20,048 nt of DNA, taken from the IMG/VR virus record IMGVR_UViG_3300010354_000909, positions 1 through 20,048 of that record. One strand, written 5' to 3'. The notes below the pieces were generated by a model that made no database searches, had not been told where the DNA came from, and saw only the letters and a list, made by a program, of their open reading frames with translations. The translations under genes were made by a program, and so were the position numbers. Numbering within the stretch: the stretch's first letter is position 1; each line of letters begins with the position of its first letter. The stretch comes from a virus. Below, piece by piece: positions 1 to 5,992 of the stretch.

Positions 1-855
1 AATGGTGATCTTTCGGTTCTGAATTGGTTCGTTGCTGATAGCAATCTCTCCCTCAAGATTGACGGTGCTCCCGCTATTGTCTGGGGGACTAATCCTGCGA
101 ACGGTAAGTTCTTCGTGGGAACCAAAGCTGTGTTCAACAAAGTAAAGATTCGCATTGCACATTCTCACGAGGATATTGATACTTTCTATGCAGGAGAAGT
201 TGCAGACATTCTGCACTCTTGTTTCGACAATCTGCCTCACATTGCTGGTATCGTCCAAGCAGACTTCATCGGGTTCGGTGGTAGTGATGAGTACAATCCC
301 AACACCATCACCTACAAGTTTCCCGAAATTGTAGACAACAATATCATCATCGCACCTCACACTTTCTATACTGCAACCAACGATCTTCGTGATGCAGTTG
401 CACAACCTGATCCCTATCTGTGGGTGGATACTGATAACGTCAAGTATGTGAAACCAAATGCATATATTGCACACAATCAGACCTCTTTTGCTGATGTGAA
501 GGAAGTGTGTGAGTTTGCTCGTCAAATGTCCACTACTTGTGAGTTCGTTTCTGATAAGGAAGCTGCAAAGATCAAACAACAACTGAATGGTTTCATTCGT
601 ACTGGTGAAGAGGTAAATCCTGAGGAGTTTGATTGTGATCCTAATCTGATTCGTTTGTGGGCGTTGGTGAAGTCCATCAAGGATGATTGTTTATATCTGT
701 GTCGCAATGATGGTCCTGCCGCTTATCTGTACGGTAATCGAATTGATGCAGAGGGTTATGTAATGGTGAATGAGTTTGGTATGTTCAAACTGGTCAATCG
801 TGAGGTCTTTTCTAATGCAAACTTTAATCACAGTCGGTTTCAGTGTGCCAGCTGA
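1..855 (+). CDS. DUF6267-like phage protein with ligase-type nucleotidyltransferase motifs, 5' truncated
   Basis: The frame is open from the first base, so the start lies outside the window; 284 codons are visible. The order of motifs resembles covalent nucleotidyltransferases (DNA/RNA ligase and capping enzyme fold): KIDG at visible residues 19-22 (motif I KxDG, K being the candidate nucleotidyl lysine), QADFIGFG in the middle, the segment NTITYKFPE followed by IIIAPHTFY, then AEGYVM near residue 251 (motif IV EG) and FKLVNR near residue 262 (motif V, lysine at 263). The stretch NGKFFVGTKAVFNK after motif I is what I recall from the phage family called DUF6267, found in T4-like phages; that assignment is from memory. 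If the fold is right, it would bind ATP and act in nucleic acid end joining or repair, but no activity is proven. The stop codon lies inside the inverted repeat of the next promoter module. Confidence 0.72.
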   Translation, partial: NGDLSVLNWFVADSNLSLKIDGAPAIVWGTNPANGKFFVGTKAVFNKVKIRIAHSHEDIDTFYAGEVADILHSCFDNLPHIAGIVQADFIGFGGSDEYNPNTITYKFPEIVDNNIIIAPHTFYTATNDLRDAVAQPDPYLWVDTDNVKYVKPNAYIAHNQTSFADVKEVCEFARQMSTTCEFVSDKEAAKIKQQLNGFIRTGEEVNPEEFDCDPNLIRLWALVKSIKDDCLYLCRNDGPAAYLYGNRIDAEGYVMVNEFGMFKLVNREVFSNANFNHSRFQCAS

Positions 856-902
856 TGAACTGGGCCACACCTCTTGCCAGAGTCCTCGTTTGATCGTATT
901 GT
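843..902 (+). promoter_or_regulatory. Promoter module P1 (inverted repeat plus sigma-70 promoter)
   Basis: An imperfect hairpin pairs GTGTGCCAG (843-851) with CTGG-GC-CACAC (860-870) and spans the preceding stop codon. Eight bases after the CTGGGC end is TTGCCA (874-879), then a 17-bp spacer and TATTGT (897-902). The transcript would begin near 909, shortly before the ATG at 927. CCACACCTCTTGCC (865-878) recurs exactly at 4952-4965 in P6, and the initial transcribed sequence TAGCCACATCA recurs at P8 and P9. Confidence 0.6.
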
Positions 903-926
903 AGCCACATCAAACAACTCAACTCA

Positions 927-1442
927 ATGCAGTCCAATCTCACCTCTGCACAACAACAATACCTCGATGCATTTGCTGCTCTCTATGAGGCAGCAGATGC
1001 ACTGAATGCTGGCGACCCGATGAGTTATGCTCGCTCTCGTGAGATTCACCTTGCTTGTTTGTTGGGTCACACGGTTGCTGATACTTACAGTGGTGCAGAT
1101 GCATTTGAACCCGATGGAACTCCTGTAGAGTATAAGAGCACCATTGGCACCAAGATTTCCGCAACCTATAATGGTATCAGTGTTCAACCTACTTGGGAAG
1201 AACAAGAAGAGTATCTGATTGAGCATAAAATCGGTTGTTATCCTCGTCACTATTATGCTCGTTATGAGGGTGCAAATGTCGCAGAGGTTTGGATGATGGA
1301 CTCTGACACTGTTCTGTCTCTTTTGCTACCCAAAGCGAAGAAACAATACCCCACCAAACGTAACGGTAAAGCAAAAGATCCCCGTATCGGTATCACTATC
1401 TCAGCTGGAGAGATTCGTAAGCACGGGACTCGTGTGGTGTGA
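927..1442 (+). CDS. PD-(D/E)XK nuclease-like protein
   Basis: 171 residues. I do not recognise a named family, but the core resembles a PD-(D/E)XK endonuclease: a helix with SREIHLACLLGHT (E39), then SGADAFEPDGTPVEYKST, where D58 and E68-Y-K70 sit on adjacent strands as the metal-binding D...ExK triad would. The spacing, preceding helical glutamate and length are typical of small restriction or homing-type nucleases. The C-terminal KRNGKAKDPRIGITISAG could contact DNA. It would hydrolyse DNA with magnesium if active. It is a single-gene unit driven by P1 and followed directly by P2, with its stop codon overlapping the P2 palindrome. No methylase is adjacent, so a classical restriction-modification pair is not supported; a homing or host-DNA-degrading nuclease is equally possible. 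The fold call is inference from motif pattern. Confidence 0.6.
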   Translation: MQSNLTSAQQQYLDAFAALYEAADALNAGDPMSYARSREIHLACLLGHTVADTYSGADAFEPDGTPVEYKSTIGTKISATYNGISVQPTWEEQEEYLIEHKIGCYPRHYYARYEGANVAEVWMMDSDTVLSLLLPKAKKQYPTKRNGKAKDPRIGITISAGEIRKHGTRVV

Positions 1443-1495
1443 CAGCCGGCCGGCTGTCCACTATTCTCGCCGATGAGTTCGTTCTGTTCTATATT
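1441..1495 (+). promoter_or_regulatory. Promoter module P2 with perfect 18-bp palindrome
   Basis: GACAGCCGGCCGGCTGTC (1441-1458) is its own reverse complement and includes the last two bases of the preceding TGA. Eight bases on is TCGCCG (1467-1472), 17 bp, then TATATT (1490-1495). The next ATG is at 1517. There is no T-tract after the palindrome, so an operator or activator site is as likely as a terminator. Confidence 0.6.
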
Positions 1496-1516
1496 GGATA
1501 CAGTTAAGAAACACCA

Positions 1517-1672
1517 ATGAGCGACCGTCTGACTCTCACGATTCGTTGGGTTCGTGAGCATTGTGCATTTCTTCAGGTTCAAGCTTCAGAGTCTATCATT
1601 GCTCGGGTTCAGATGAGTGTCAACCAACTGACAGATGCCGAAGTGTCAAAGTTTCTTTCCGAACCTATCTGA
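1517..1672 (+). CDS. Hypothetical protein, 51 aa
   Basis: ATG at 1517 lies 21 bases after the P2 -10 box, with AAGAAA as a weak ribosome site. The product MSDRLTLTIRWVREHC... ends ...SVNQLTDAEVSKFLSEPI. It is small and probably helical; no motif is recognised. It is the first gene of a short run ending near 2233. The position right after the promoter and the downstream packing support it being real. Confidence 0.55.
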   Translation: MSDRLTLTIRWVREHCAFLQVQASESIIARVQMSVNQLTDAEVSKFLSEPI

Positions 1673-1695
1673 GTCACTACATCACAAACAAACCA

Positions 1696-1857
1696 ATGAA
1701 GAACTATCGTGTAATGGTTGAAACTAACGATGGATGTGTGACCGTTTGGTATGAGAAATCCAATGCAAAGACGGCGGACAAATTGATTCTCAATCGTGTC
1801 TATAATCAACTCTGTGGGTTGAACATTAAAGAGATCGACGTTACTCTTTCTGTCTGA
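1696..1857 (+). CDS. Hypothetical protein, 53 aa
   Basis: I chose the ATG at 1696, 23 bases after the previous stop. The longer in-frame extension back to 1561 would overlap the upstream gene almost completely. The product MKNYRVMVETNDGCVTVWYEK... then a helix and IKEIDVTLSV looks like a compact beta-alpha-beta protein. No function is recognised. The stop overlaps the next ATG (TGATG at 1855-1859), indicating translational coupling. Confidence 0.6.
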   Translation: MKNYRVMVETNDGCVTVWYEKSNAKTADKLILNRVYNQLCGLNIKEIDVTLSV

Positions 1858-2030
1858 TGAACTTCATTGAAATCAAGAAAACTTCACGCACAAGCCGCAA
1901 TGGTCGTTTAATTCAATGTCCACACTGCAAGAATGTAACGAAAGTCCATCATTTGAGTTGGAACGCATTACATTGTTTGAAATGTGAGACAATGGTGAAC
2001 AAGTATGATTATCTGATGGAATGCCAATGA
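1857..2030 (+). CDS. Small zinc-ribbon protein, 57 aa
   Basis: Start ATG overlaps the stop of the gene before it, and its own stop overlaps the next start (ATGA at 2027-2030). The product has two CxxC knuckles, CPHC at residues 21-24 and CLKC at 40-43, separated by 15 residues, the classic single zinc-ribbon layout. The N-terminus (KKTSRTSRNGRLIQ) is basic, so nucleic acid binding or a transcription-modifying role is possible, as for many small phage zinc proteins. Specific role unknown. Confidence 0.65.
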   Translation: MNFIEIKKTSRTSRNGRLIQCPHCKNVTKVHHLSWNALHCLKCETMVNKYDYLMECQ

Positions 2031-2233
2031 AACTCACAAAAGAACAATTAATCACTGCACTTTCTGCTGAGTATGAGTATCTTTGCCACGATGATTTTGA
2101 TCCTGATATGGATGTATCTCCTGAAGATTATCGCGTGATGCTGACACAAATGTCAATGAATGAACTGATCGAAGAGACAAGCACTGGTGAACATTTCAGT
2201 TTAGAAGAATACCTCAACACTTGGACCAGTTGA
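2027..2233 (+). CDS. Hypothetical acidic cyanophage protein, 68 aa
   Basis: ATG at 2027 overlaps the upstream stop by four bases; an alternative ATG two codons earlier (2021) adds only MP. The product begins MKLTKEQLITALSAEYEYLC and contains an acidic centre DDFDPDMDVSPEDYRVML and a C-terminal helix. It resembles small acidic proteins I recall from cyanomyoviruses, function unknown. It is the last gene of the 1517-2233 run. Confidence 0.65.
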   Translation: MKLTKEQLITALSAEYEYLCHDDFDPDMDVSPEDYRVMLTQMSMNELIEETSTGEHFSLEEYLNTWTS

Positions 2234-2287
2234 GAAACTGTCACAAGCCCGCTTGATTTTTCGTCGATTCTGTGCAAGCCTAAGACT
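2234..2287 (+). promoter_or_regulatory. Short intergenic spacer with weak terminator-like and promoter-like signals
   Basis: CAAG (2244-2247), loop CCCG and CTTG (2252-2255) followed by ATTTTT form a short terminator-like hairpin. GATTCT (2266-2271) could be a -10 for the gene at 2288 but has no clear -35. This spacer does not carry the palindrome seen in P2-P5. Confidence 0.25.
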
Positions 2288-2470
2288 ATGAACAAAACCA
2301 CTTCAAACCCTTACATCGCCACTCTCGTTGAGATGGGCTATGACGAAGCAGACTGCCAGATGGCAATCGCCTCTCGTGATGCTACCTATCCTCGTGTGAT
2401 TCACGGCCGTACGTTTCACACCAAAGCTGAGTATGACGAAGCACTCGCTGACTTTCTGAATGGACTGTGA
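2288..2470 (+). CDS. Hypothetical protein with UBA-like MGY helix, 60 aa
   Basis: The product starts MNKTTSNPYIATLVEMGYDEADCQMAIASR and ends FHTKAEYDEALADFLNGL. The segment ATLVEMGYDEADCQMAI has the pattern of a UBA/TS-N type three-helix domain (MGY loop followed by an amphipathic helix); such domains also occur in bacterial elongation factor Ts. This is a pattern resemblance only. Its stop codon TGA is part of the P3 palindrome (TGACAGC). Confidence 0.6.
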   Translation: MNKTTSNPYIATLVEMGYDEADCQMAIASRDATYPRVIHGRTFHTKAEYDEALADFLNGL

Positions 2471-2523
2471 CAGCTGCACGGCTGTCCACTGATTCCGCCG
2501 AGACGCCCGTTCTCGTGTATTCT
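2469..2523 (+). promoter_or_regulatory. Promoter module P3
   Basis: GACAGC (2469-2474), a 6-base loop and GCTGTC (2481-2486) form the inverted repeat, starting in the upstream TGA. Eight bases later is CCGCCG (2495-2500), 17 bp, TATTCT (2518-2523). The sequence TCTCGTGTATTCTATAAGAG followed by TCAAAGGAA is nearly identical to that in P4. The downstream ATG is at 2550. Confidence 0.6.
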
Positions 2524-2549
2524 ATAAGAGTCAAAGGAATCGCACTCAA

Positions 2550-2738
2550 ATGACGATCACCAAACAACAAGCACTTTCTCAGTTTCGCTATGTTTGGAAA
2601 GTGGAATCCATTCGCAATCCTGTCATCAAAGGTGACACGATTATGAAACGTGAAGCGTGGAACAATTTCGTTGATTCTCTCAACAAAGAGGGTTACGTTT
2701 CTGACTCTCAAGCTTTTCGTTGGAACAATCCTTTCTGA
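2550..2738 (+). CDS. Conserved cyanophage hypothetical protein, 62 aa
   Basis: ATG at 2550 is 26 bases after the P3 -10; AAAGGA lies 11 bases upstream of it, rather far for a ribosome site. The product MTITKQQALSQFRYVWKVES... contains KGDTIMKREAWNNFVDSLNKEGYVS, a helical segment I recall in several T4-like cyanophage small proteins without function. First gene of a four-gene operon ending at 3506. Confidence 0.65.
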   Translation: MTITKQQALSQFRYVWKVESIRNPVIKGDTIMKREAWNNFVDSLNKEGYVSDSQAFRWNNPF

Positions 2739-2749
2739 ACACCAAACAA

Positions 2750-3082
2750 ATGACTGCAATGCTGACTCAAACCAAACCCGAGTTTCTGACCGATTGCCTC
2801 ATTGAAGAGGTGAACAATCGTTGGAAAGTTGATGGAATTGAATCCGATCGTAACTATCACATTCTGTCCGCAGATTATGGTAAAAAGTACATTAAGGTGA
2901 TGCAATCTTATGCACACTCTTCTGGTCGTAGTGTGTGGATGTTCGTTGATCGCAAGACTGGTGAATGTTTCAAACCTGCAAGCTGGAAATCACCTGCAAA
3001 AGGGGTTCGTTATCTGATTCACCAACTGACCGAAAATCCTCACATTTGTGATCCTTACGGCGGTTTTCTGTACCTGAAATGA
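2750..3082 (+). CDS. Conserved phage hypothetical protein, 110 aa
   Basis: I chose ATG at 2750, 11 bases after the upstream stop; an upstream in-frame ATG at 2720 would overlap the previous gene, and one at 2759 is also possible. The product has a small alpha/beta pattern with the conserved-looking centre SVWMFVDRKTGECFKPASWK and a C-terminal GVRYLIHQLTENPH. The VDRKTG...KPASWK...KGVR pattern is familiar from uncharacterised small proteins of many tailed phages. The stop overlaps the next ATG (ATGA at 3079-3082). Confidence 0.68.
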   Translation: MTAMLTQTKPEFLTDCLIEEVNNRWKVDGIESDRNYHILSADYGKKYIKVMQSYAHSSGRSVWMFVDRKTGECFKPASWKSPAKGVRYLIHQLTENPHICDPYGGFLYLK

Positions 3083-3291
3083 TGTACCAAATCACTGAGA
3101 TTGAGTTTGATTGTTCACTTGAAGATGACGATTGGACTGAACAGGATCAGATCGAAACCGAAGAAATGCTACCCAGTCGCTACATCGGCACCATTTGGGA
3201 TGCTGATGATGAAGATGATTTAGTAGAAGAGATCACCGCTGCCACTGGTTGGTGTATTAAATCTCTCAACTTTCGCCACATTCTCAAATGA
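3079..3291 (+). CDS. Hypothetical acidic protein, 70 aa
   Basis: Translationally coupled at both ends by 4-base ATGA overlaps. The product MMYQITEIEFDCSLEDDDWTEQ... is strongly acidic, with the segment YIGTIWDADDEDDLVEEITAATGWCIKSLNF, suggestive of a compact alpha/beta fold. A second ATG immediately follows the first, so the exact start may be residue 2. No function is recognised. Confidence 0.65.
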   Translation: MMYQITEIEFDCSLEDDDWTEQDQIETEEMLPSRYIGTIWDADDEDDLVEEITAATGWCIKSLNFRHILK

Positions 3292-3506
3292 ACAATCTCA
3301 CCACCGAACAATTCGAAAAACTGAAGTCCATCTATTGTGCTTTCATTATTGAAGGAATGGACGTGGATTGCTTAATGCAGATGGCGTATGATATGCTGCT
3401 AGAGTCTTATGCAGATGTGACAGAAGAACAACTCAAGGAAGAGATTGCTGACTTCTATGATGGTACTCTGCTGGAGGATTTTATGGAGGAAGCTGTAGAG
3501 AACTAA
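3288..3506 (+). CDS. Hypothetical acidic helical protein, 72 aa
   Basis: Starts within the stop of the preceding gene (ATGA). The product MNNLTTEQFEKLKSIYCAFIIEG... is rich in E and D and predicted mostly helical by eye, with a C-terminal DFMEEAVEN. It is the last gene of the 2550-3506 operon and is followed by P4. Function unknown. Confidence 0.65.
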   Translation: MNNLTTEQFEKLKSIYCAFIIEGMDVDCLMQMAYDMLLESYADVTEEQLKEEIADFYDGTLLEDFMEEAVEN

Positions 3507-3516
3507 GATCGACTGT

Positions 3517-3571
3517 GCCAGTTCACCAGCTGTCCACTCATTACGCCGAGACGTTTGTTCTCGTGTATTCT
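3517..3571 (+). promoter_or_regulatory. Promoter module P4
   Basis: GCCAGTTCACCAGCTGTC (3517-3534) is a degenerate copy of the palindrome, differing from the P5 copy at one base. Eight bases later is ACGCCG (3543-3548), 17 bp, TATTCT (3566-3571). The downstream region TATTCTATAAGAGTCAAAGG matches P3 exactly. ATG follows at 3598. Confidence 0.6.
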
Positions 3572-3597
3572 ATAAGAGTCAAAGGAACACCACTCAA

Positions 3598-3849
3598 ATG
3601 ACAATGAACGCCAAACACATTCTCAAGTCTTTTTCGTTTCAAGCTATCACTGAGTTGAGTGCTCCTTGTAGCAAAGCAGAAATCTCAAAAAAGGTCTTAG
3701 AAATTGCTAGGGAATGTGATGCTCTCACTGATGATTTAATCTTTGCATTTAAGGATATTGGGTGGGGTTTTACTGAACTTAAAATGCAAGGATTGATTGC
3801 AAACAATGGCAAACCTGGTAAGTCTTCCCGCTGGTTTCTTACAGTGTGA
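3598..3849 (+). CDS. Winged-helix protein resembling the Mrr N-terminal domain, 83 aa
   Basis: MTMNAKHILKSF then CSKAEISKKVLEIARECDALTDDLI and WGFTELKMQGLIANNGKPGKSSRWFLTV. The end has the winged-helix signature W-x-x-T-x-L-x-x-x-G-L-I followed by a basic turn and an aromatic-L-T strand, as in the Mrr_N domain that precedes Mrr-type restriction nucleases. Here only that domain is present; no nuclease domain follows. A DNA-binding regulator or anti-restriction decoy is possible but is inference. Single-gene unit under P4; the stop codon TGA enters the P5 palindrome. A start two codons later (3604) is also possible. Confidence 0.62.
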   Translation: MTMNAKHILKSFSFQAITELSAPCSKAEISKKVLEIARECDALTDDLIFAFKDIGWGFTELKMQGLIANNGKPGKSSRWFLTV

Positions 3850-3902
3850 CAGTTCACCAGCTGTCCACTCATTCCCCACAGACTCCCCAAATGACTTATA
3901 TT
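3848..3902 (+). promoter_or_regulatory. Promoter module P5
   Basis: GACAGTTCACCAGCTGTC (3848-3865) has 5-bp perfect arms and starts inside the preceding stop. At the conserved distance the -35 position reads CCCCAC (3874-3879), a poor match, then 17 bp and TATATT (3897-3902). Transcription would start near 3909, 39 bases before the ATG at 3948. Confidence 0.5.
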
Positions 3903-4497: not shown

Positions 4498-4620
4498 ATG
4501 CTCAAACTGACTGTAGCTGGTTTGTTATTGTGGGTGTTCTGGTCACCGCTACAACCTATTCGGCAAGTCACCGCCAGTGTGTTACATACCGCTGCCGATG
4601 CGATTTATAGTCAAAATTGA
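4498..4620 (+). CDS. Small single-pass membrane protein, 40 aa
   Basis: I prefer the ATG at 4498 because AAGGAAA lies six bases upstream; an in-frame ATG at 4447 would add 17 polar residues. The product MLKLTVAGLLLWVFWSPLQP has a hydrophobic helix at residues 2-15, followed by IRQVTASVLHTAADAIYSQN, a short amphipathic helix. The pattern resembles short membrane peptides I recall from cyanomyoviruses. It is the last gene before the non-coding repeat region. A membrane-associated role in infection is inference. Confidence 0.6.
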   Translation: MLKLTVAGLLLWVFWSPLQPIRQVTASVLHTAADAIYSQN

Positions 4621-4704
4621 TTAAAAAGTGATTAAAAAGGTATTATTAAATGGCATAGCGTTGTTTATGTGATATTGATAATTATCTGTATTGAGTTGAT
4701 TACC

Positions 4705-4722
4705 TGATACGAATTCGTATCA
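4705..4722. other. Perfect 18-bp palindrome
   Basis: TGATACGAATTCGTATCA equals its own reverse complement. It stands alone in AT-rich non-coding DNA about 85 bases after the membrane peptide gene. Its perfection and intergenic position suggest a dimeric protein binding site. Confidence 0.6.
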
Positions 4723-4739
4723 AAGATGTATGAAATAGA

Positions 4740-4858
4740 GTGCTAAAGTCTTATGAAACCCAGCTGAGTATTATGTGCTAAAGTCTTATGAAACCCAGCC
4801 AGAATCTTATAAAGGGCGCCGAGTATTATGTGCTAAAGTCTTATAAAGGGCGCCGAGT
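4740..4858. repeat. Mosaic tandem repeat, about 34-35 bp period
   Basis: A 25-base block is identical at 4740-4764 and 4775-4799 (core TCTTATGAAACCCAGC). A 24-base block (GAGTATTATGTGCTAAAG plus TCTTAT) is identical at 4766-4789 and 4821-4844. A 20-base block (TCTTATAAAGGGCGCCGAGT) is identical at 4805-4824 and 4839-4858. Four TCTTAT(G/A)AA units therefore occur at 4749, 4784, 4805 and 4839, with the tail switching from ACCCAGC to GGGCGCC. Confidence 0.85.
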
Positions 4859-4960
4859 CTTGTGGTCTAAGCGCGCACGGTAACGCGCCGCCGCCCATTA
4901 TATAAAACCCCGGCGCCCTTGGCAATCCCTCCGAACCACTCCGCGAACCGTCCACACCTC

Positions 4961-4989
4961 TTGCCGAATCCCTCCGAGTGTCCTACACT
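4961..4989 (+). promoter_or_regulatory. Promoter P6
   Basis: TTGCCG (4961-4966), 17 bp, TACACT (4984-4989). The preceding CCACACCTCTTGCC is identical to P1. The ATG at 4996 begins six bases after the -10, so the predicted transcript would be leaderless or nearly so. Confidence 0.6.
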
Positions 4990-5178: not shown

Positions 5179-5198
5179 CCCCATCAGCCCCCTATACT
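5170..5198 (+). promoter_or_regulatory. Promoter P7
   Basis: TATACT (5193-5198) is a near-consensus -10. The -35 position 17 bp upstream reads CGCCAC (5170-5175), weak and inside the preceding gene. CCCCATCAGCCCC just before the -10 is shared with P9, and TAGCCACA follows the -10 as in P8 and P9. ATG follows at 5220. Confidence 0.55.
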
Positions 5199-5219
5199 AG
5201 CCACAACGACAGACACCTG

Positions 5220-5405
5220 ATGAAAGCCACCCTCTCCCTCCGCGATCGTTGCCTGGCCCTTGCAGAGGCCTATGCTTGGGAGATCAATGGAGATCTTGAT
5301 CAGGTCGAGCAGGAGGCGATCGATTCTATCCTGGCAGACCTGACCCCTGAGAACCTGGAGGAGACGGCCGGCGAACTGGCACACCTGGCCGCCTGGATGA
5401 ACTGA
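5220..5405 (+). CDS. Hypothetical protein, 61 aa
   Basis: The ATG at 5220 is downstream of P7; an in-frame GTG at 5145 would start inside the upstream gene and before the promoter. The product MKATLSLRDRCLALAEAYAW... DQVEQEAIDSILADLTPENLEETAGELAHLAAWMN is acidic and helical throughout. GC-rich codon usage differs visibly from the late genes. Function unknown. Confidence 0.6.
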   Translation: MKATLSLRDRCLALAEAYAWEINGDLDQVEQEAIDSILADLTPENLEETAGELAHLAAWMN

Positions 5406-5419
5406 TCTGACCCTATACT
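5391..5419 (+). promoter_or_regulatory. Promoter P8
   Basis: TATACT (5414-5419) with TGACCC just upstream as in P7. The -35 position reads GCCTGG (5391-5396), weak. TAGCCACATCACC follows, identical to P9. AAAGGA (5432-5437) is a clear ribosome site five bases before the ATG at 5443. Confidence 0.55.
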
Positions 5420-5442
5420 AGCCACATCACCAAAGGACACCA

Positions 5443-5691
5443 ATGAACGGCTACGCAACCTACGAAACCTGGAACGCCGCCCTCTGGATTCAGAACGACC
5501 AGTTTCTTTACAACACCGCTCAGGCCTGTGTGACCTACTGTGGGGCTAATGAGACCCCGTGGCAGAAGTTCCAGCGTTGTATGATGGAGGGGCAGATCGG
5601 TCGTTACCTGGGCGCCACTGGTGATGGTGTTGCTTGGAATGATCCTGCGATCGACTCTAAGGAGATGGAGGCGCTTCTGGCAGACCTCTGA
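5443..5691 (+). CDS. Small phage protein, DUF7249-like, 82 aa
   Basis: Good ribosome site AAAGGA five bases upstream. The product begins MNGYATYETWNAALWIQNDQ followed by FLYNTAQACV, and ends TGDGVAWNDPAIDSKEMEALLADL. The Y-x-T-Y/W-x-T-W-N-x-A-L-W-I-x-N-D opening and the DGV-x-W-x-D-x-x-I ending match a family of small phage proteins that I recall as DUF7249; the label is from memory. Role unknown. It is a single-gene unit in the GC-rich island. Confidence 0.68.
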   Translation: MNGYATYETWNAALWIQNDQFLYNTAQACVTYCGANETPWQKFQRCMMEGQIGRYLGATGDGVAWNDPAIDSKEMEALLADL

Positions 5692-5700
5692 AGAGGGGCC

Positions 5701-5729
5701 TTGCCTCTGACCCCATCAGCCCCTACAAT
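5701..5729 (+). promoter_or_regulatory. Promoter P9
   Basis: TTGCCT (5701-5706), 17 bp, TACAAT (5724-5729): a good sigma-70 promoter. AGAGG (5691-5695) and CCTCT (5704-5708) form a small inverted repeat over the -35. TAGCCACATCACC follows the -10. Confidence 0.62.
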
Positions 5730-5752
5730 AGCCACATCACCGAATCGCACCG

Positions 5753-5935
5753 ATGATCCTCTCCATGTCTTCCGATCTCCAAACCCGTCGCATCGTTTGG
5801 ACCGGTCGCAACAACGACAACAGCCCTATGGGTTCGCGTCTGCAGCCCCAACTGGGCATCAGCGCCTTCGCCATCGCTGGTCAGTTCGCTGAGGTATGGG
5901 CAGACGAAGCACAGGAGACTCGGCCCATCTGGTGA
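5753..5935 (+). CDS. Hypothetical protein, 60 aa
   Basis: ATG 23 bases after the P9 -10; a second in-frame ATG at 5765 is a possible start. The product contains LQTRRIVWTGRNNDNSPMGS then RLQPQLGISAFAIAGQFAEVWADEAQ. A Gly/Asn-rich turn and a hydrophobic core are visible; no family is recognised. The overlapping frame starting at 5701 begins inside the P9 -35 region and is discounted. Confidence 0.55.
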   Translation: MILSMSSDLQTRRIVWTGRNNDNSPMGSRLQPQLGISAFAIAGQFAEVWADEAQETRPIW

Positions 5936-5937
5936 GG

Positions 5938-5992
5938 ACAGTTGAGCAAGTGGGCCAGGCCCCTTGCTTTCCTCCCCGTTTCATCCTATCTT
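5938..5992 (+). promoter_or_regulatory. Promoter module P10
   Basis: GACAGTTGAGCAAG (5938-5951) recalls the first arm of the P5 element. GCAAG (5947-5951) and CTTGC (5963-5967) flank GGGCC/GGCCC to give a near-palindrome. TTGCTT (5964-5969), 17 bp and TATCTT (5987-5992) form the promoter. AAAGGGA (6004-6010) is the ribosome site for the gene at 6019. Confidence 0.55.

Follow-up and report, generated by a model that had tools for sequence, protein, structure and literature searches.

A dyad locked to the -10 element in small-gene promoters of T4-like cyanophages and its probable role as a protein-binding site

Several small genes near one end of this viral fragment are preceded by similar inverted repeats, which raises the question of whether these repeats belong to a single kind of promoter and whether they act as DNA sites or as RNA hairpins. 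The window, meaning the whole stretch of 20,048 bases that was analysed, is a fragment of a T4-like cyanophage (Kyanoviridae) with its nearest matches among Synechococcus and Prochlorococcus phages. It contains gp25- and gp6-like baseplate genes at 8.7-11.1 kb, and the repeats lie in a cluster of small codirectional genes 5' of these, syntenic with Syn9, S-RIM8 and DSL-LC02. A preliminary description had listed five sites with an inverted repeat and a promoter. All five were observed as described, and two more with the right geometry (5364 and 5938) had been missed (Table 1).

Table 1. Dyads, promoters and neighbouring features observed in the window
Feature	Position	Strand	Half-sites, cores or other elements	-10	Matrix score	Distance to -10	Context
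P1	844-902	+	half-sites 844-853, 859-868; TTGCCA 874-879	TATTGT 897-902	21.5	+37	dyad overlaps stop codon (853-855) of upstream DUF6267 gene
P2	1438-1495	+	ACAGC 1442-1446, CTGTC 1454-1458	TATATT 1490-1495	32.8	+36	left arm contains stop TGA (1440-1442) of upstream gene
Dyad 2226	2222-2246	+			20.8 (dyad only); -10 score -8.2		no -10 at usual distance; terminator-like CAAGCCCGCTTGATTTTT 3' of dyad
P3	2466-2523	+	cores 2470-2474, 2482-2486	TATTCT 2518-2523	33.0	+36	
P3 leader	2524-2540	+	ATAAGAGTCAAAGGAAT				conserved; Shine-Dalgarno-like AAAGGAA
P4	3514-3571	+	CCAGT 3518-3522, CTGTC 3530-3534	TATTCT 3566-3571	36.7	+36	-10 followed by same conserved leader as P3
P5	3845-3902	+	ACAGT 3849-3853, CTGTC 3861-3865	TATATT 3897-3902	37.7	+36	
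Gene 3' of P5	3948-4310						Kyano_Gp96; Pfam PF23790 matches residues 1-111 from 3948 start
Site 5364	5360-5419	+	ACGGC 5364-5368, CTGGC 5376-5380	TATACT 5414-5419	21.5	+38	dyad within ORF ending 5405; upstream of DUF7249 gene at 5443
Site 5938	5934-5992	+	ACAGT 5938-5942, GTGGG 5950-5954	TATCTT 5987-5992	18.9	+37	directly after stop of ORF 5753-5935

Using a scoring matrix whose training contigs included neither the window nor Syn9 or DSL-LC02, we found seven sites combining dyad and -10, all on the + strand and none on the - strand. Since 100 dinucleotide shuffles of the window yielded only three matches in all, the set of sites lies far above chance. The highest shuffled score was 21.9, so P1 and the 5364 site are individually weak, and P1, 5364 and 5938 are each at the edge when taken singly. 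A repeat finder grouped four of the five originally noted sites, and a sigma70 consensus scan was uninformative (16 found, 14.4 expected). The fixed geometry that had been proposed was retained for the distance from dyad to -10, which differs by a single base between P1 and P2-P5 when counted from the CTGTC or CTGGG right core, but not for a fixed, recognizable -35. The hexamers suggested for that role in four sites (TCGCCG, CCGCCG, ACGCCG, CCCCAC) are unlike TTGACA, and only the TTGCCA of P1 resembles it.

The dyad, here called IR1, approximates TGTG[AC]CAGTT-N5-AACTG[GT]MCAC, and a sigma70-type -10 follows its right half-site at 36-38 bp. The loci compared are a sample drawn by patterns, and kinship among cassettes was reduced by identity cut-offs. 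The distance was +36 or +37 in 161 of 175 training cassettes. Loci retrieved without any promoter pattern supplied 562 non-redundant dyads; for these, -10-like hexamers numbered 77, 123 and 58 at offsets +36, +37 and +38, where the background level is 4.6 per offset. Of 542 dyads, 439 had one or both flanks carrying a -10-like hexamer at +36 to +40. Scanning with the dyad only, we observed -10-like hexamers gathered at the expected distance before many different leaders. Searches with the leaders themselves gave a similar picture: GTGTATTCTATAAGAGTCAAAGG returned 69 viral stretches, whose 130 non-redundant cassettes (set 1) aligned without gaps and with the dyad in one register, while TATCTTRGCCATGTTGAGAGG, first noticed behind dyads and then searched without requiring a dyad, returned 49 stretches and 73 non-redundant cassettes (set 2) with the same dyad in the same place. 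Promoter families with the unrelated leaders TATTCTATAAGAGTCAAAGG and TATCTTRGCCATGTTGAGAGG, each gathered independently of the dyad, carried it there in nearly every member. Many cassettes had a conserved leader with a Shine-Dalgarno sequence, and the distance from leader to ATG varied while that from dyad to -10 was locked. The core of the P3 leader (22-23 nt) is common to many cyanophage contigs, and the P4 region at 3557-3587 is identical to Syn9 in 31 of 31 positions.

Syn9 and DSL-LC02 each contained about ten IR1 sites, most of them in hyperplastic regions of small genes (43-53 kb in Syn9 and 25-34 kb in DSL-LC02, with 1-6 kb as the corresponding region of the window), and in both phages one IR1 precedes a peptidase gene and one a cytidyltransferase operon. 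Eight sites were observed in S-PM2 and five in P-HM2 within the stretches read, and no IR1 was found in the podovirus Syn5, which shares the same hosts. Far from being absent elsewhere, as it might have been had the preliminary description been mistaken, the motif recurs across Kyanoviridae with the same dyad and the same distance, before clustered small genes and two core operons. Dyad symmetry with independently conserved half-sites and a lock to the -10 is thus a feature of the lineage, and by these comparisons the IR1 sites are members of what we read as one cyanomyovirus promoter class, marine and freshwater.

The explanation that best covers the whole, and that we consider probable, is a class of promoters with IR1, at which a putative dimer would bind and most likely activate transcription. 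With the predicted start taken as about 7 nt past the -10, the centre of IR1 would fall near -52, with a weak or absent -35 and a sigma70-type -10 downstream. The classical activator position, -41.5, is one helical turn closer to the start. A dimeric protein would occupy IR1 on the side of the DNA that faces RNA polymerase, and its activating role would explain the tolerance of a missing -35; many small units of the hyperplastic regions, together with the two core operons, would in this way be switched together. The poor -35, sometimes replaced by a terminator stem, suggests a promoter needing help and hence an activator. The protein would have to come from the host or the virion if IR1 promoters are early promoters. 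We put forward more tentatively, and would not yet call probable, the fuller proposal that T4-like cyanophages, as a group without motA and asiA, rely on an activator of their own: a dedicated dimer, encoded by the phage, delivered with the virion or recruited from the host, that would recognize IR1 near -52 and replace the -35, making up one regulon of mobile cassettes across marine and freshwater Kyanoviridae. As a candidate for the IR1-binding protein we considered the 'transcriptional regulator' beside phoH, which is conserved and matches no Pfam family, and rejected it because no evidence spoke for it.

The same dyad and fixed spacing would be expected if IR1 were instead an operator at which a phage or host repressor shuts these promoters off, and its position just upstream of the -35 region would suit such a role. 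However, a site centred near -52 covers neither the -10 nor the start, and a promoter that lacks a usable -35 as a rule calls for assistance, not for repression, so that we regard a repressor as unlikely.

Because the dyad occurs at gene ends and its RNA can form a hairpin, a terminator was first expected. On that reading IR1 would end transcription of the upstream gene as a stem-loop and be coupled to the early promoter of the next gene, as in the mobile promoter early stem-loop (PeSL) cassettes of T4-like phages reportedly described in Arbiol 2010 and Comeau 2014. The dyads do lie mostly at gene ends, frequently over the stop codon, those of P2 and P5 fold well (z of -4.6 and -3.4), and IR1 in general folded better than shuffled sequence (mean z -1.45), which counts against a DNA site. 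Near-identical cassettes were also observed between unrelated genes, and PMC4503421 cites the class as described for T4-like phages. Against these points, no U-tract follows IR1, and P4 folded no better than shuffled sequence. Paired positions showed no covariation: Fisher tests gave p = 0.10-0.14 for set 1 and p = 0.24 for set 2, where the trend ran in the opposite sense. The commonest inner state in set 1 was a G-G mismatch. Swapping IR1 halves carried no cost in set 2, where 47 of 100 swaps reached the real fold value, and little cost in set 1 (4 of 100 and 3 of 40), with a hint of pairing. The two halves behave like half-sites conserved independently of each other, not like a co-evolving RNA stem. 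Arms kept around a varying centre, which had been proposed for the window, were also observed between orthologues in the window and the 83%-identical contig L001: the P2 orthologue reads GACAGCC-ACGT-GGCTGTC where the window has the centre GGCC, and the P3 orthologue reads GACAGCC-GTCT-GGCTGTC where the window has GACAGCT-GCAC.

The placement of IR1 also bears on this choice. With ORF and gene ends in viral contigs called mechanically, 49 non-redundant dyads lay wholly inside ORFs of at least 60 aa (up to 331 aa), including eight in ORFs of at least 249 aa. Window site 5364 is of this kind, and the ORF around it had no relative in the phage collection. Separate canonical terminators were observed between dyad and -10 at DSL-LC02 27180 and 136926, at S-PM2 11351 and in contigs L091, L099 and L103; the S-PM2 11351 stem has been listed as a possible PeSL stem (PMC4503421). 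One dyad of P-HM2 is divergent, lying between genes 064(-) and 066(+) with -10-like hexamers on both sides, and an annotated 43-codon ORF runs across it. We used only this divergent case because S-PM2 p063/p064 and p067/p068, also considered, resemble misannotated codirectional gene ends. The DNA before the p064 and p068 IR1 promoters resembles gene ends on the strand opposite to that of the annotated genes, so the annotations of p063 (20455-20700, -) and p067 (21656-21928, -) may be wrong. Finally, a terminator has no need of a fixed distance to a -10. None of these five results (covariation, spacing, dyads inside ORFs, coexisting terminators and the divergent case) is decisive alone, but together they favour a DNA site. 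After the covariation, coding-sequence and coexisting-terminator results we gave up termination as the main role of IR1 and now consider it improbable. The dimer-binding site of the preliminary description accordingly fits better than a terminator hairpin, while its -35 component is not supported.

A second inverted repeat, IR2, lies between the dyad and the -10. Its halves match each other in set 1, where none of 100 swaps reached the real value. Some cassettes have an IR2 in the form of a canonical terminator, which overlaps the -35 region. IR2 may be the true PeSL stem.

A total of 136 cassette pairs were at least 86% identical, of which 23 had both flanks unrelated and 28 had one flank unrelated and one shared (51 of 136). 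Judged from their flanks, cassettes appear to move between genes, and the pattern would fit either recombination at the cassettes or their duplication, as has been claimed of PeSLs. Such near-identical cassettes between unrelated genes would also arise if a single ancestral cassette had been spread by recombination and its dyad had no present function, but the sequence from dyad to -10 has diverged far more than the dyad and the -10, orthologues retain the arms while the centre changes, and the site recurs with unrelated leaders. We hold inheritance alone to be very improbable, although selection need not account for all of the fixed spacing, some of which could be inherited. A host origin of the leader was considered and rejected: the exact 22-mer occurred in one of 84,980 species genomes, on contig L194 (NZVD01000053.1) of a Rhodopirellula MAG. 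This planctomycete-binned contig of 14,985 nt equals the phage contig L021 in length and nearly coincides with it in motif coordinates, and is probably a mis-binned cyanophage contig.

IR1 is also a practical aid to annotation, since it flags promoters and reveals where a start codon has been placed too far upstream. At Syn9 gp61, gp73, gp150 and gp183, the -10 of an IR1 promoter seems to include the annotated start codon or to follow it, and for this reason the true starts are probably further downstream. Separately, we observed a conserved non-coding stretch about 60-200 nt upstream of a DUF7249-type gene in L115, L163, L086, L196, L198, L202, L206, L212 and L221. It comes after a near-perfect sigma70 promoter (CTTGACATAAG...TATAAT), precedes an IR1 promoter and is bounded by CTCTGTGG and CCACAGAG, which could pair. 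No Rfam match was found at the three loci scanned, and the stretch is possibly an unnamed phage small RNA. Within the window, the leader CCCTATACTAGCCACA is repeated at 5190-5205 and 5411-5426, with a CCCTACAATAGCCACA form at 5721-5736; it precedes three successive small genes, of which only the middle one has a scored IR1, and looks like a second promoter family. No convincing gene was seen at 4620-4975, a non-coding region that contains imperfect repeats (GAGTATTATGTGCTAAAGTCTTATGAAACC, GGGCGCCGAGTATTATG).

A novel regulatory element of Syn9 early genes, conserved among T4-like cyanophages, has reportedly been described by Doron et al. 2016 (ISME J 10:1437). This element is probably IR1: the phage group is the same, and the Syn9 dyads lie mostly in one small-gene cluster. 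To this the present analysis adds a definition of the half-sites, shows that the geometry is locked, extends the range to a freshwater relative and tests the terminator reading. Like PeSLs, IR1 cassettes are small, promoter-bearing units at gene ends in hyperplastic small-gene regions, between unrelated genes, with a sigma70-type -10 and leader immediately before the start codons of the next gene; the -35 of IR1 cassettes is weak or absent. They differ from PeSLs in that IR1 is not terminator-like, having neither U-tract nor covariation, occurring inside coding sequence and standing beside canonical terminators, and in its fixed distance to the -10; S-PM2 and DSL-LC02 carry a PeSL-like terminator stem in addition to IR1.

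Cyanomyoviruses lack motA and asiA (PMC2984593; PMC5780444), and a 2010 review described the mechanism of their early and middle transcription as still unclear (PMC2984593). A sharply defined site of fixed geometry makes this control testable. The middle promoters of T4 (MotA/AsiA) resemble IR1 promoters in combining a phage-specific upstream box with a sigma70 -10 and a weak or absent -35, but the MotA box lies near -30 and is no long dyad, whereas IR1 is one. Bacterial activator-dependent promoters of the CRP/FNR type, whose dyad lies between about -41 and -62, share with IR1 a palindrome on the polymerase face at fixed spacing, and differ in their half-sites, which are spaced by N6 in CRP and follow TGTGA-N14-TCACA in IR1.
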